Shown one piece after another: positions 40,014 through 49,325 of a DNA stretch of 64,000 bases. The notes beneath the pieces were generated by a model, which saw nothing but the letters and a program-made list of their open reading frames with translations, was not told where the DNA came from and ran no database searches. Source of the DNA: Rikenellaceae bacterium (GTDB lineage Bacteria > Bacteroidota > Bacteroidia > Bacteroidales > Rikenellaceae); NCBI GenBank assembly GCA_015059785.1, contig SUZS01000004.1, forward strand, positions 1-64,000. Reading direction: 5' to 3'. The position numbers were made by a program, and so were the translations under genes. Position 1 is the stretch's first letter, and every line of letters starts with the position of its first letter.

Positions 40014-41300
40014 CTATAGTAAGAATCTGAGCAGGAAGATTGCTGCAAGAACAATCATACCAGTAGATACCCTCTTGTAGTTACCAGAGCAGAGGTTTAT
40101 GGCAACATATGCCAGGTGGCCGAAGATAATACCATTTGAGATACTGTATGATAGTGGCATAAAGATTATGCAGACAAATGCTGGTACAGCATCGGCAAAG
40201 TCCTCAAAGTTAATCTTTGTTACAGACCCCATCATCATCACGCCCACAAGAATAAGCACTGGAGCCGTTGCCGCGCTTGGGATAGATAGGAAGAGCGGCG
40301 CGAAGATAAGTGCCACAAAGAAGCAGATAGCCGTCACAAATGCAGTAAGTCCGCTTCGTCCACCCACGCTCACGCCAGTAGCACTCTCGGCAAATGTTGT
40401 TACGGTGCTTGTACCCATAACCGCACCAAGGGTTGTGGCAATGGCGTCTACTAAAAAGGCCTGCTTGAGGCGCGGAATCTTGCCATCAGGGGTGTATATA
40501 TTCGCCTTGTTACATACACCGATAAGTGTACCCATAGTGTCAAAAAGGTCAAGGAAGAGCAGTGTGAAAACAATCAAAAGCATATCTGTTGTAAAGATAT
40601 TGCTCCACTGCATCTTGCAGAAAATAGGCTCTATAGATGGCGGAGTGCTAATTACACCCTGCATTGTGGTTATGCCACAAGGAATACCAATAACAGTGAT
40701 TAACAGAATGCCGATAAGCAGCGCACCCTTGACATTCTTCACAAGCAGAACGGCTGTGATAATCGTTCCGATAACTGCCAATATAGGCGTTGCACTGCCA
40801 AGGTCTCCAAGAGCCACCTGTGTGGCGTTGTGACCTACGATAATGCCCGCATTCTGTAGTCCGATGTAGGCGATAAACATACCTATACCTACACTTATGG
40901 CGTTCTTTATGCTGTCACTAAGACAGTAGACCATCATTTCTCGTAAGTTTGTCACTGTTAGCAGTATAAATAATATACCCTCAACGAACACCGCTGTGAG
41001 GGCAAACTGCCAAGAGTAGCCCATTGCTAAACATATTGTGTAGGCAAAAAAGGCATTTAATCCCATACCAGGAGCAAGGGCAAAAGGTAGCTTAGCGATA
41101 ACAGCCATCATCAGCGTAGCAATAGCTGCAATCAGAGCCGTTGTTGTAAAAAGTGCACCTTTGTCCATACCTACATCACCCAAAATGGCAGGGTTAACAG
41201 CAAGGATGTAGGCCATAGTGAGGAATGTCGTCACACCAGCGACAATCTCAGTACGAACAGTCGTAGACTTTGGGTCAAAACCAAAAAGTTTTGTTAGCAT
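40014..41300 (-). CDS. NCS2 family (AzgA-like) purine permease
   Basis: TVRTEIVAGVTTFLTMAYILAVNPAIL, FALAPGMGLNAFFAYT, ATTLGAVMGTSTVTTFAESATGV. Confidence 0.95.
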   Translation of the reverse strand: MLTKLFGFDPKSTTVRTEIVAGVTTFLTMAYILAVNPAILGDVGMDKGALFTTTALIAAIATLMMAVIAKLPFALAPGMGLNAFFAYTICLAMGYSWQFALTAVFVEGILFILLTVTNLREMMVYCLSDSIKNAISVGIGMFIAYIGLQNAGIIVGHNATQVALGDLGSATPILAVIGTIITAVLLVKNVKGALLIGILLITVIGIPCGITTMQGVISTPPSIEPIFCKMQWSNIFTTDMLLIVFTLLFLDLFDTMGTLIGVCNKANIYTPDGKIPRLKQAFLVDAIATTLGAVMGTSTVTTFAESATGVSVGGRSGLTAFVTAICFFVALIFAPLFLSIPSAATAPVLILVGVMMMGSVTKINFEDFADAVPAFVCIIFMPLSYSISNGIIFGHLAYVAINLCSGNYKRVSTGMIVLAAIFLLRFLL

Positions 41301-43129: not shown

Positions 43130-44120
43130 CTAGCTAAAACTCTCACAATACGCAACAATCAATTGGATTGCAGACTCGACATCTCTAAGGTCGCATACTT
43201 CTACAGGTGTATGCATATAACGGCAAGGAATCCCTATAGAAACTGTTTTTACACCACATTGAGAAATCTGAATACGAGAAGCGTTGGTCCCACCAAACGC
43301 ACAATGCCTTGCCGTAATTTGATAAGATATACCTTTTTCTTTCGCAATAGCTTCAAGTCGTTGATGCTGCTCTATGTTGCTGTCTGCGTTATACGATATA
43401 ACTACTCCTTCTCCCATGAGTACATTGCCATATTGATTTGGTTGACAATCTGGGACATCGGTCGCAAAATCTAAATCTACGGTTATTGAAATATCTGGAC
43501 GAATACTGTATGTCGCAATCGCAGCTCCGCGTCCTCCTAATTCTTCTTGTACAGTAGCTACACCATATATGGTAGATTTTGTTTGTTTTCTGCTAGCAAT
43601 AATTTTTATCGCACGCATTACTACGAATAGCCCTAATTTATTATCAAGAGCTTTACAAGCAATTCTGTATTTCCCTAATCTGACTAGATTGGGAGATATC
43701 ACGACGGGATCGCCTATTGATATTTGAGATTTAACCTCATCTGCTGAGAGTCCTGTATCAACCCATACTTGATGCATTTTCAATGAATGACATTCATCTT
43801 TACTTGTTAAATGAATCGGCTTTTTACCAATCACACCAGGTATAATCGTCTTATTCCTTGTTTGGATTAAGACATGTTGTCCAATAATACACTGTTCATC
43901 AATACTACCATTCTTACGTATATATATGCCCAGAATCAGTAATATATAAAACTTGAAAACCAATTTCATCGGCATGTGCTTCGAGCATAATTTGGGGATA
44001 TGCTACGTCACCATCAACTATGGTTATGGCATTCCCCATACTATCAATCTGTGATTGATTTACATCATTTCTTAAGTGTTTTATAAATAAACTAGATATA
44101 TCTTGTTCGAACCCCGACAC
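43130..44120 (-). pseudogene. M42 family aminopeptidase split by a frameshift (ORFs 43914-44120 and 43130-43975)
   Basis: MLEAHADEIGFQVLYITDSGHIY joins ...IYIRKNGSIDEQCIIGQHVLIQ; downstream RIACKALDNKLGLFVVMRAI, ATVQEELGGRGA; junction at TATATATAT 43919-43927. Confidence 0.8.
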
Positions 44121-44182: not shown

Positions 44183-45487
44183 TTAAGAGAAAATTTCTTT
44201 AAAACAAGATAAGGCTTCTGACACTACATGGATACTTCCACCAATATAAACTAAGTCATCCGATTTGCTATTACATTTATAATATTTAATAGCATCCTTT
44301 ACTGAATCTGTTATAATACCTGGTAATCCAATCTCTTTAGCCAATTCTCTCGATTTAATATAACTTTTTGCCTCTGTATATATGTAGAAAGCATTTGTTG
44401 GCAAGTATTTTTTTATGGAAAGTTTTCGAGAACTTGTTAAACCTAAAATTATCACTAAACGTTTATATTGAGTATCGTACATCATTTCAAGTTGTTTCAT
44501 ATTCAATTCTATCCCCTGTGCGTTATCACAAACATCCACTATAATCTTTGGCTTATTCGAGATAACTTCCCACCTTCCCCTAAAATTCATAATTTTTGAG
44601 GTTTCTTTAAGTGTCTGAATTGTTTTAATGTGGTTGAATTGGTGAAAAATATTAGGATAAGTTTTATTCAATAGCCATAATGTGCTCAATGTGGTTTGTA
44701 TATTTCTTAATTGGTAATAACCTGATAGATCAAAGTCAAAGTTAGATTCTATTTGTGTGTCTGTTATAGTAGGATAAAGTTCGTCTGAAAAATATACAGA
44801 TGATGACACTTTTTCAGCAGATTGTTTAATTTGCTGTTTTATATCATCATTAACATATCCAACGACAACTGGCGAGTGCTTTTTTATTATACCGCATTTT
44901 TCTGCTGTAATCCTATAAACACTTTCTCCAAACAACTCAGTATGAGCAAGTCCAATAGAGGTAATAACACTGATTAATGGTGTTTCAATTATGTTTGTAG
45001 GATCTAGTTTCCCGCCTATTCCTGTCTCAACAATGGCAATATCAACATTCTTTGTATAAAAATATAGAAATGCCATTTCGACAAACACTTCAGAGTATGA
45101 TGATATTTTAATTGAAGCATTGGCATTGGCGGTTATCAAGATTTGTTGTGCCAATGAAATCATATCTTCTTCTGAAATCAACTCTCCGTTTATTCTAATT
45201 CTTTCTCTGATATCAAATAGTTGTGGAGAAGTATATGTACCAACCTTAAAGCCATTTGCTATGAGCGCTGTAGCTATAAAGTTACAACATGAACCTTTCC
45301 CATTAGTTCCTGCAATATGTATAACTTTCAGTTTTTGACTTGGAGAACCTAGATATTGGTCAAGACGCCGCATTGAGTCTAGTGGCCATTGATAATGCTT
45401 ATCATTAACAACAAATGTAGGATGTTTTAATGATGATAAATAACTAAGTAAGTCATCAAAACTATTTATCACTCGCATTGTCTGCAA
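44183..45487 (-). CDS. FolC-like Mur ligase (folylpolyglutamate synthase family), divergent
   Basis: VIHIAGTNGKGSCCNFIATAL P-loop; YTSPQLFDIRERIRINGELIS; ETGIGGKLDPTNII. Confidence 0.85.
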   Translation of the reverse strand: MQTMRVINSFDDLLSYLSSLKHPTFVVNDKHYQWPLDSMRRLDQYLGSPSQKLKVIHIAGTNGKGSCCNFIATALIANGFKVGTYTSPQLFDIRERIRINGELISEEDMISLAQQILITANANASIKISSYSEVFVEMAFLYFYTKNVDIAIVETGIGGKLDPTNIIETPLISVITSIGLAHTELFGESVYRITAEKCGIIKKHSPVVVGYVNDDIKQQIKQSAEKVSSSVYFSDELYPTITDTQIESNFDFDLSGYYQLRNIQTTLSTLWLLNKTYPNIFHQFNHIKTIQTLKETSKIMNFRGRWEVISNKPKIIVDVCDNAQGIELNMKQLEMMYDTQYKRLVIILGLTSSRKLSIKKYLPTNAFYIYTEAKSYIKSRELAKEIGLPGIITDSVKDAIKYYKCNSKSDDLVYIGGSIHVVSEALSCFKEIFS

Positions 45488-46769
45488 TATATAGTTTAAC
45501 TCTTTCTATCAATTCTTGTTCAGTCATTGCACAATGTGTATTTTGCATACTGCCTGTATGTTTTAAACATCTATACGCACAATCAGATGCACAGGCCGGC
45601 AATAATTTACACCTCTTACACAGTTCTGAACGAAATGGAGACCAAGATAATTGTTCATAATACTGTGAATTTCTTTTAATAAATCCATTTTGTATTCTTC
45701 CTACAGAATATGCTGCTTCTCCAACTAAGTTTTCACACTTATACACATACAATTCTGGATCTATAACATAACAACCTATGCGATTCATCGCACATGGTCT
45801 CTTCTTACCGAAAGCAATGTTATGGAGTTCCTTTTTGTACTTCTTTAAAAAAGGCTTGAACTTCGGACGAATATTTATATGATATTCATTATCTGTAATA
45901 CATTCATTTGTACGACAGCTATTATTACCAGCAGCCCTTAATAATCCCACATATAAATATCCACACAAACTATGAAAACCGTTGAATACATCTTCAACGC
46001 AATCGAGGTTGTCTTTGTCAATATTCAGACGTAAATCAATAAGGTCCTTGCACCCATTGTTGTTTAACAAATGTATTACCTCATTTATTTTATCATAACT
46101 TCCATCCCCGGATTTGTATCTTCGTCTGCTGTCATGTACATCTTTATTACCATCCAAGGTTATTTGAATACGCATGTTATTCGGGATGATAAGATTTGTA
46201 ATGACATCTTGATTAATAAGAGTTGCGTTTGTTATAATTTTTGATGTAAAAATCAGGCTTTTCTCATTTGCGATTTTAGAAATTTTAGATGTTAGTTCAA
46301 TACACACATTCTTATATAACAAAGGTTCTCCTCCGAATAATATCAATAGAATTCTTTTATATGCCCTATAAGGCAAACTTAATTCATTTTCAACAAAAGC
46401 AATTATTTCAGATATATCATCATCCGTTAAATGACTTTTGGCTGTATTACAATTCTCAAAACAATATGAGCACTGTAAATTACAATTATAAGTTGGTAAA
46501 ATTACTAATCTTAATTCTTCGGGATTAGAGCAATATTGGATAGAATTATAATAATGTTCATATATTGCACCTTCATTAGTATCGAATTTCACCACCATGC
46601 CATTCTTTTTTAGAATTTCAAGGCCATGCTCATCAATGTTATCAATAGAATTGGATTTAAGGTGAGAAATTACATCTTGAGGAACAGCCAAAATAGATGT
46701 GCTTAATGTGTTGTAAATGTAATATTTATCTTCGATGTTAAAGAAAATATTATAAAACGATGATTTCAT
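45462..46769 (-). CDS. Radical SAM/SPASM peptide maturase (rSAM2)
   Basis: YNCNLQCSYCFENC; LFGGEPLLY; SPASM-like Cys cluster CKRCKLLPACASDCAYRC. Confidence 0.92.
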   Translation of the reverse strand: MKSSFYNIFFNIEDKYYIYNTLSTSILAVPQDVISHLKSNSIDNIDEHGLEILKKNGMVVKFDTNEGAIYEHYYNSIQYCSNPEELRLVILPTYNCNLQCSYCFENCNTAKSHLTDDDISEIIAFVENELSLPYRAYKRILLILFGGEPLLYKNVCIELTSKISKIANEKSLIFTSKIITNATLINQDVITNLIIPNNMRIQITLDGNKDVHDSRRRYKSGDGSYDKINEVIHLLNNNGCKDLIDLRLNIDKDNLDCVEDVFNGFHSLCGYLYVGLLRAAGNNSCRTNECITDNEYHINIRPKFKPFLKKYKKELHNIAFGKKRPCAMNRIGCYVIDPELYVYKCENLVGEAAYSVGRIQNGFIKRNSQYYEQLSWSPFRSELCKRCKLLPACASDCAYRCLKHTGSMQNTHCAMTEQELIERVKLYIADNASDK

Positions 46770-46825
46770 GCAAGTACTTTTTAATAGGGTGGACTTTACT
46801 TTTTAAAATCCACCCCTGAGTAAGA

Positions 46826-46927
46826 TTAGTCACAGAAATTATTACAAGGGTTGCAATAATCATCACCCATTGTAAATCTCACATCAGTGCTTTCATAAGC
46901 AACGGCAGGTTTAATTTCTTCAATCAT
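46826..46927 (-). CDS. Small ORF (33 aa), putative RiPP precursor: MIEEIKPAVAYESTDVRFTMGDDYCNPCNNFCD
   Basis: Read from sequence (not in ORF track); immediately upstream of rSAM2; Asp/Glu-containing N-terminus and C-terminal CxxCxxxC. Confidence 0.7.
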   Translation of the reverse strand: MIEEIKPAVAYESTDVRFTMGDDYCNPCNNFCD

Positions 46928-46998: not shown

Positions 46999-47391
46999 TT
47001 AAACTACTTGCAACGCTAATTCAATTCGATCATAGTGGATATTGAAATACCTAAAATAACACCGCCCACCAAAAGAACTCAGAAGTTTTAACTTCGTTGG
47101 AACAATAGCGATTGTCTTAGCGGCTTTGTCTATCACAATGCCATCAGGGAGAAACGAGAAGAAATTTACAGCGGACAACATAAATGATGACGCTCCCGCT
47201 ACTTCATATCTGAATGGAACATAGTTCTTATCAAAACCGCACTTGCGTAATTTCATTGTCACATTGGGAAGTAATGCTCCTGGATTATATGTAAGCTCAA
47301 AAGTATTCTCTCCAAGCCCTCTTAGTTTTATACCAGTATTTGCTGCTTCAAGAAATTTGTTTAGGTCATACAACTTTATAGAAACATCCAT
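46999..47391 (-). CDS. Hypothetical protein in RiPP-like locus
   Basis: ORF in operon context. Confidence 0.7.
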   Translation of the reverse strand: MDVSIKLYDLNKFLEAANTGIKLRGLGENTFELTYNPGALLPNVTMKLRKCGFDKNYVPFRYEVAGASSFMLSAVNFFSFLPDGIVIDKAAKTIAIVPTKLKLLSSFGGRCYFRYFNIHYDRIELALQVV

Positions 47392-47397
47392 AATTCT

Positions 47398-47889
47398 CTA
47401 TAGTGTTTTGGACATATAGACTTTCTTGTCATCTTCTCTGCAAGCACAAAAGCCTAATTGTTGCAGGAGGTTTATAGATATGCTATTATTCTTATAGATA
47501 TCTGTACTTATCGTTCGTACTACCTTGTGGTTACTTAAATAATCAAGAACATTCTGCAAGGCATCCTTCATATATCCACAAGAACGATAGTTTGGGTGCA
47601 TCGCATAAAATAAAGTTGTGTCGCATGAAATATCCATTACTGCCACAAAGCCAACTATTTCGCTGTTATGTTTAATCCCCCATAAATATCCTTCATCATT
47701 CTGTGCATATAGATCAAAGGTTGAAGTAAATCTATGAAGACCATCTGGGGTATCTAATATTTCATATAACTCAGGGAGAAACCTTCTAGTCTCAGCATCT
47801 TCAAAGATTTCTTTAAGAATGCCCAATGCATCCTCGGATATGCGAGTAAGCACACTGTGCCTTGCATAAATTTCTGGGAAAGTCATCAT
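47398..47889 (-). CDS. GNAT-family N-acetyltransferase
   Basis: IVGFVAVMDISCDTTLFYAMHPNYRSCGYMKDALQNVLDYL...NNSISINLLQQLGF; overlaps rSAM1 stop. Confidence 0.82.
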   Translation of the reverse strand: MMTFPEIYARHSVLTRISEDALGILKEIFEDAETRRFLPELYEILDTPDGLHRFTSTFDLYAQNDEGYLWGIKHNSEIVGFVAVMDISCDTTLFYAMHPNYRSCGYMKDALQNVLDYLSNHKVVRTISTDIYKNNSISINLLQQLGFCACREDDKKVYMSKTL

Positions 47890-49115
47890 TTTATCAAACC
47901 CCTTTCCGCCATTTCACAAAACAAATACATAAACACGCGAGTATATACTTGCTCGTTGTGACACAGGATATCCCATTGTTCATCAGTATGCTCCATAGCA
48001 GTCAAGCACATGTTACACATTCTAATGGCAGAACAATCTTTACAGCGATTAATTCGTCGATTGTAATAATCATGGACAATGGTATTTGCTCTGTCCCAAT
48101 CAATTCCATCGTTGATATTTCCAATGCGATAGTTATCCGCCATCATCTCACAGACACCTATCTGAAGCTTGGCGTCAATGTATAGTTTAGTATTATTGGG
48201 TAGACATGTTGCCATTGGTACAGCCGATGAAGGGTTAAAGATAGGTCGCTCTTTCCAATATGCAATACAAGCTTCTAACAACTTTTTCAATACAATCCAA
48301 TCTCGGTGCTCTGTGTATGTGTCAAGTAATTTAGTATAGAACCCTTTTACCTCGTCGTAGTCAGCACAATCAACGCCGTGACTGAAATTTGGAGCCAAAG
48401 AGTTCATCATAGTAGGCGACATGTCGTGTAAGATATCATCATTATGCCAGGCCTCTGCTATGTCAATAATCTTGTCTAACGACGCAAGTGTCATAATTAG
48501 AACCAAATCCTTTACATATTCGGGATAAGTCAATTTTATGTAAGATAGAGACTCGTAAAGTTTGGAATATGAGCCATTGCCTAAAGCATCAACTCTGTGG
48601 CGATCGTGAAATGGTTTTGTGCCATCAATGGATACGGCTAGTATAACATTGTTTGCCACTAACCAGTCTATTCGTTCTCTAGTCAAAGTCGTACCATTTG
48701 TGGAAACAGTGAAATTCACATCATTTTTCCATAACTTACGAGCCTCGACAATAGCATATTGAACTAAGTCGTAGTTGAGTAATGGTTCGCCACCGTATAT
48801 GAATATTTTAATAGGACGCTTGCTCGTAAATGAATTTATATAAGCAAAAATCTTATCAATACCATTATAGTCCATTGAGGCAGTACTATGGACTCGTTTG
48901 TTTGCATATTTTCCAGAGTAGCAACAATAAGTACAACGCAGATTGCATTGCTCTGTCAAACCTAATATAAAGGAGTCAACTTTGGGCAGTGACTTAAATG
49001 AAACAAAAGGCGCAAAATCCCACTGAGGAAGTTGCGCACCCAACGAACCGCTATGGATTTCACCGGTCTGTTTGTTATACGAATAGATATTGCCTAGGCT
49101 TGTTTGTATCTCCAT
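47886..49115 (-). CDS. Radical SAM/SPASM peptide maturase (rSAM1)
   Basis: LTEQCNLRCTYCCYSG; IYGGEPLLNYD; C-terminal SPASM NRCKDCSAIRMCNMC. Confidence 0.93.
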   Translation of the reverse strand: MEIQTSLGNIYSYNKQTGEIHSGSLGAQLPQWDFAPFVSFKSLPKVDSFILGLTEQCNLRCTYCCYSGKYANKRVHSTASMDYNGIDKIFAYINSFTSKRPIKIFIYGGEPLLNYDLVQYAIVEARKLWKNDVNFTVSTNGTTLTRERIDWLVANNVILAVSIDGTKPFHDRHRVDALGNGSYSKLYESLSYIKLTYPEYVKDLVLIMTLASLDKIIDIAEAWHNDDILHDMSPTMMNSLAPNFSHGVDCADYDEVKGFYTKLLDTYTEHRDWIVLKKLLEACIAYWKERPIFNPSSAVPMATCLPNNTKLYIDAKLQIGVCEMMADNYRIGNINDGIDWDRANTIVHDYYNRRINRCKDCSAIRMCNMCLTAMEHTDEQWDILCHNEQVYTRVFMYLFCEMAERGLIK

Positions 49116-49118
49116 TCT

Positions 49119-49325
49119 CTAATAATTGATCTTGTAGGAGTGCTGACTGTGTTTACCACCGCGTCCGTGTCCCGTGCAGCATTTATAGGTCATACAAGCC
49201 ACATTACAAGACCCTAGCCCCATAACTAGCATTGCATCTTTCTGACTCTCTTCCTTGATAATATTGTTGTTTAATATCGCAAGGATGTTTTTTTGATTGA
49301 CTTGATGGTTTGCTCTTGTATTCAT
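49119..49325 (-). CDS. Putative RiPP precursor peptide (68 aa), Cys-rich core GLGSCNVACMTYKCCTGHGRGGKHSQHSYKINY
   Basis: 4 bp upstream of rSAM1; leader-like polar N-terminus, Cys/Gly/His-rich C-terminus. Confidence 0.8.
   Translation of the reverse strand: MNTRANHQVNQKNILAILNNNIIKEESQKDAMLVMGLGSCNVACMTYKCCTGHGRGGKHSQHSYKINY

Follow-up and report, generated by a model that had tools for sequence, protein, structure and literature searches.

Does a 33-codon reading frame lying just ahead of a radical-SAM gene in a Rikenellaceae bacterium encode the substrate of that enzyme? A sequence-only reading of the window, the whole 64,000-nucleotide stretch of DNA analysed here, had picked out by hand a 33-residue minus-strand peptide with a CxxCxxxC core, 56 bp upstream of the gene that we call rSAM2, and had proposed it as a RiPP precursor bearing a radical-SAM modification. 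The description proved exact: positions 46826–46927 (minus strand) translate as MIEEIKPAVAYESTDVRFTMGDDYCNPCNNFCD* (33 residues; hereafter pep33), comprising a putative leader of about residues 1–23 and the core YCNPCNNFCD, with its cysteines in the pattern C25-x2-C28-x3-C32-D33, and 56 nt separate its stop from the rSAM2 start at 46769. Because an in-frame TAA stands three codons 5′ of the ATG, the frame cannot be longer than this. It is a short ORF beside a modifying enzyme, with modifiable residues in a CxxCxxxC core, as is characteristic of RiPP precursors. The precursor part of the proposal is well supported by the motifs of rSAM2, its kinship with CteB, the Cys-containing ORFs upstream of its relatives and an RNA element that several of them share. 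Our best explanation is that pep33 serves as a RiPP precursor on which rSAM2 acts, probably, we infer, by forming thioethers at the cysteines of the peptide, a reading to which we give a probability of roughly 0.72. If it is right, a hand-read 33-codon ORF leads to a RiPP cluster that is open to testing and has an unusual set of enzymes.

The pep33 reading frame and its RNA element

The gap between a hypothetical gene, ORF130, and rSAM2 in which pep33 lies measures 229 nt; elsewhere in the cluster, neighbouring genes mostly overlap or are 3–84 nt apart. pep33 might be no more than a fortuitous frame in untranslated sequence: when the gap was resampled 20,000 times under a first-order Markov model, 13% of the resampled gaps contained an ATG ORF of 30 residues or longer. 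The cysteine pattern is far harder to obtain in this way, however: 0.3% of resampled gaps gave an ATG ORF of 25 or more residues with three cysteines in its last 12, and 0.035% gave one (again of 25 or more residues) with CxxCxxxC, figures that are optimistic in that the motif was picked after it had been seen. Scored per codon against the codon usage of the surrounding genomic island, pep33 also exceeds all 89 shadow ATG ORFs of 25–80 residues in that island, on the small sample that 33 codons provide. With its ATG at the usual distance from the RNA element described below, and the rSAM2 start 178 nt from that element, we regard a chance frame as very improbable.

The strongest evidence that pep33 is a real gene is this RNA element, a predicted DUF805b cis-regulatory RNA (RF02914; 46948–46982, minus strand) that scores 51.6 bits with the Rfam covariance model against a gathering score of 35.6 and ends 20 nt before the ATG. 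The spacing is typical of other DUF805b sites, an ATG following at about 17–38 nt in nearly all copies inspected, and the start codon of pep33 is independently supported because it stands at this usual distance. The reading frame is confirmed as sequence and supported as a gene. Seven copies of the element show covariation in its 4-bp stem, with changes on both sides in three of the four pairs.

A survey of 11 genomes with rSAM2-like genes returned 12 DUF805b elements over the cut-off, half of which (the copy in the window and those at G012:C7, G212:C1, G229:C7, G004:C54 and G004:C98) lie within about 2 kb upstream of an rSAM2-like gene on the same strand, where position alone would predict about 0.01. 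The genomes were picked for having such genes, though what is tested is position inside each genome; the G004 pair are paralogues, which leaves the six sites not fully independent and the significance overstated. At most of the six, the first gene 3′ of the element encodes a short peptide with cysteines and a GG leader, starting 18–24 nt away, the exceptions being the G212 peptide, which starts 156 nt from the element, and the G004:C54 copy, which looks degraded. Further copies lead a DUF805 gene (PF05656) or ORFs resembling those of secreted proteins. Because it also precedes non-peptide genes, DUF805b is not exclusive to peptides, and what it signals is the beginning of a gene, not a precursor as such.

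The Rfam name suggests an association with DUF805 genes only, and a literature search on the DUF805b RNA found no report; in several genomes of the family, at loci L155, L156, L157, L158 and L159, we observe it ahead of peptide-led operons with rSAM2-like enzymes. An orphan RNA is in this way tied to peptide-led radical-SAM operons, and may offer a convenient marker in Bacteroidales for precursor genes that are overlooked by ORF callers.

Between pep33 and rSAM2, at approximately 46780–46819 (minus strand), the transcript is predicted to form a 13-bp hairpin of −18.9 kcal/mol (z about −4), a stability that no shuffled sequence equalled. Stable hairpins are common between the precursor and enzyme genes of RiPP operons. 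The possibility that this one is an intrinsic terminator was rejected: it has no U-tract and is absent from the list produced by a terminator scan.

The radical-SAM enzyme and its relatives

The rSAM2 gene (45462–46769, minus strand) encodes a predicted radical-SAM/SPASM peptide maturase of 435 residues (PF04055), with a CX3CX2C cluster motif (C96/C100/C103) and seven SPASM cysteines (C326, C345, C384, C387, C393, C397 and C413); across 27 homologues, C384 is retained in at least 90% and every other one of these cysteines in all 27. Its closest solved structure, by profile (E 6e-53) and by fold, is CteB, the maturase of a SCIFF ranthipeptide. AlphaFold gave a weak model (pLDDT 52), the whole-chain fold of which matches CteB; residues 8–55, a possible PqqD-like RRE (leader-binding) domain, are predicted, at low confidence, to run strand-strand-strand-helix-helix. 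With NCBIfam models, nearly full-length alignments were obtained to CefB (222 bits against a cut-off of 600), Clo7bot (181 against 600) and TIGR04463 (178 against 525), and because these scores reach only about one third of the cut-offs, rSAM2 is, judged by sequence, a member of none of the three equivalogs. In the sets searched at genus, family and order level, homologues share only about 25–37% identity, with no close orthologue among them, and pattern scans for relatives across genome contigs and viral contigs gave two remote radical-SAM proteins or none.

The surroundings of these relatives bear on the role of pep33. Of the 35 loci whose flanks were complete, 21 have, upstream of the enzyme gene, an ORF bearing three or more cysteines close to its end, as against 6 downstream and 6 antisense (upstream versus downstream, p = 0.0002), and several relatives combine such an upstream ORF with a C39 peptidase ABC transporter. 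The sequence-only reading had made its proposal depend on conservation of the ORF upstream of homologous maturases. That expectation holds for the position of the ORF, as a class, and not for the sequence of pep33, since a search of its own genome (beyond pep33 itself) and of plasmids found no homologue.

At three other loci (L103, L104 and L105, from G463, G654 and G398), an rSAM2-like enzyme has one neighbour that carries a thioredoxin-like CPPCE motif and another that resembles the N-terminus of an arsenite methyltransferase; at the first two of these (also recorded as L041 and L044), a short ORF ends in AQCCAKxSKxxxGCHD, possibly marking a distinct RiPP-like system. A reading of the pep33 locus as a defence system was considered and rejected, its matches being only to generic viperin-like radical-SAM proteins.

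Set against known systems, pep33 and rSAM2 recall ranthipeptide loci (SCIFF CteA/CteB; PapA/PapB) in pairing a short Cys peptide with a radical-SAM/SPASM maturase, the N-terminus of which may in rSAM2 likewise be RRE-like. Ranthipeptides carry a thioether from a Cys sulfur to a non-alpha carbon, sactipeptides one to an alpha carbon. Yet rSAM2 scores far under the relevant cut-offs (SCIFF, 73 against 425 bits; PapB, 118 against 340), and pep33, the linkage of which is a presumed one, shows no CX3D repeats and lacks the six-Cys pattern of SCIFF. The CefA/CefB, Clo7bot and TIGR04463 radical-SAM RiPP systems account for the top three NCBIfam hits obtained with rSAM2, and Clo7bot loci similarly place many short Cys-rich peptides upstream; unlike theirs, the enzyme here is below cut-off and its peptide matches no precursor model. 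Bacteroidota clusters of the GG-leader type (TIGR04149) share with this locus the enzyme clade and a Cys peptide immediately upstream, and several of them the DUF805b RNA as well, but pep33 lacks a GG leader and, unlike those of most relatives, its cluster contains no C39 protease, C39 peptidase ABC transporter or other exporter, a FolC-type gene (FolC2) standing next instead.

Two further explanations accept pep33 as a gene and differ over what becomes of it. It might be the substrate of rSAM2 and yet yield a product other than a thioether, for example a three-residue cyclophane closed by a C–C bond, in which case the cysteines would stay free and perhaps bind metal. Y24-C25-N26 and F31-C32-D33, read directly in pep33, fit an aromatic-X-X motif, and among the lower-scoring NCBIfam matches of rSAM2 are many maturases that form cyclophanes, GrrM and YhhB for instance; the stronger matches (CefB, Clo7bot, TIGR04463 and PapB), by contrast, are families paired with Cys-rich peptides, and the nearest solved structure, CteB, points the same way. 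We consider a cyclophane unlikely, and would rank the chemistries with thioether first and cyclophane second.

Less likely again is that pep33 has another role, as a leader peptide, a regulatory peptide or a small protein that binds metal, and that rSAM2 acts on some other protein or on pep68, a second Cys peptide nearby (49119–49325, minus strand; 68 residues, with CNVACMTYKCC). A pep33 with no GG leader, exporter or sequence homologue, behind an RNA that leads non-peptide genes too, would suit such a role, but it occupies the very position that Cys-rich short ORFs take in the relatives of rSAM2, and pep68 has a closer partner in another radical-SAM gene, rSAM1, from which 3 nt separate it.

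Proposed pathway and the second FolC

On the preferred reading, with pep33 as the precursor on which rSAM2 acts, one message would carry DUF805b, pep33, the hairpin, rSAM2 and FolC2, and the hairpin may cause more peptide to be made than enzyme. The putative RRE-like N-terminal region of rSAM2 would bind the leader of pep33 (about residues 1–23), and the enzyme would connect the sulfur of Cys25, Cys28 and/or Cys32 with residues close by (Cys28 with Asp33, for instance), 2 Da being lost for each thioether. Links from Cys28 or Cys32 to Asp33 are conceivable because PapB accepts Cys-to-Asp spacings of zero to six (PMC9413430). More tentatively, FolC2 might attach an amino acid, perhaps Glu, to a carboxylate at the Cys-Asp end of the modified peptide, and a GNAT-family enzyme or peptidases might complete the product.

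FolC2 (44183–45478, minus strand), which overlaps rSAM2 by 17 nt, matches the FolC model TIGR01499 over its full length at 262 bits, above the cut-off of 162.65, and like FolC (folylpolyglutamate/dihydrofolate synthase) it retains the P-loop and the EKxGI motif. It departs from FolC in being a second copy in its genome, set beside a peptide maturase; the ordinary housekeeping gene, of which nearly all genomes of the genus have one, is at C4:163422–164705. It departs also in its C-domain, where the housekeeping FolC of the same genome and eight other Bacteroidales FolCs have D-T-[AG]-H-N-x-x-G and FolC2 has DVCDNAQG, the otherwise invariant His of D-x-x-H-N being replaced by Asp (HN to DN). The only relatives found were ordinary FolCs, at about 40% identity. 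We infer from these motifs that the amino-acid or acceptor site of FolC2 has changed, and suggest that the enzyme is plausibly a tailoring ligase.

Extending this to a new type of RiPP, in which a radical-SAM enzyme would cross-link pep33 and a diverged FolC, a member of the Mur-ligase superfamily, would add at least one amino acid to its C-terminal Asp, all under the DUF805b RNA, gives a proposal that we consider unlikely. Were it true, amide ligation on a ribosomal peptide by an enzyme of the FolC fold would be, to our knowledge, new RiPP chemistry; full-text literature searches, incomplete in their coverage, returned no report of a FolC-fold ligase acting on a peptide. The locus owes its novelty chiefly to the lack of a GG/C39 pair, to its FolC paralogue and to its DUF805b leader.

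Neighbouring genes and the low-GC island

Upstream of DUF805b lies ORF130 (46999–47391, minus strand), a hypothetical protein with no family match, whose membership of the pathway is uncertain; a joined query of three proteins from the island or its neighbourhood, ORF130, a 172-aa peptidase-like protein and u407, gave only weak matches across 393 Bacteroidales genomes, confined to the peptidase-like part. Beyond ORF130, and on the same strand, a tight second gene set comprises the GNAT-family acetyltransferase gene (47398–47889; PF13302), whose product could be a tailoring enzyme, rSAM1 (47886–49115; PF04055) and pep68. The rSAM1 product resembles a radical-SAM peptide maturase, its best NCBIfam match being CcpM at 187 bits against a cut-off of 500, and pep68, which has a codon score that is not distinctive, is a possible second precursor, paired with rSAM1 in the same cluster. 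On the other side, 3′ of FolC2, an M42 aminopeptidase-like gene (43130–44120, minus strand) is split between two overlapping frames, through either a frameshift or an assembly error.

The whole cluster lies in a low-GC stretch (about 0.32–0.41 GC, with flanks mostly at 0.42–0.50) that spans roughly 41.1–72 kb of contig C33, as traced through window positions 41100–64000 together with locus L118. No flanking repeats above chance were found at its ends. A tyrosine integrase gene is located at the far end of the island, and its other same-strand genes encode a NusG paralogue, a phosphopantetheine-carrier protein, M48 peptidases, several Hsp70-like proteins and large uncharacterised proteins.
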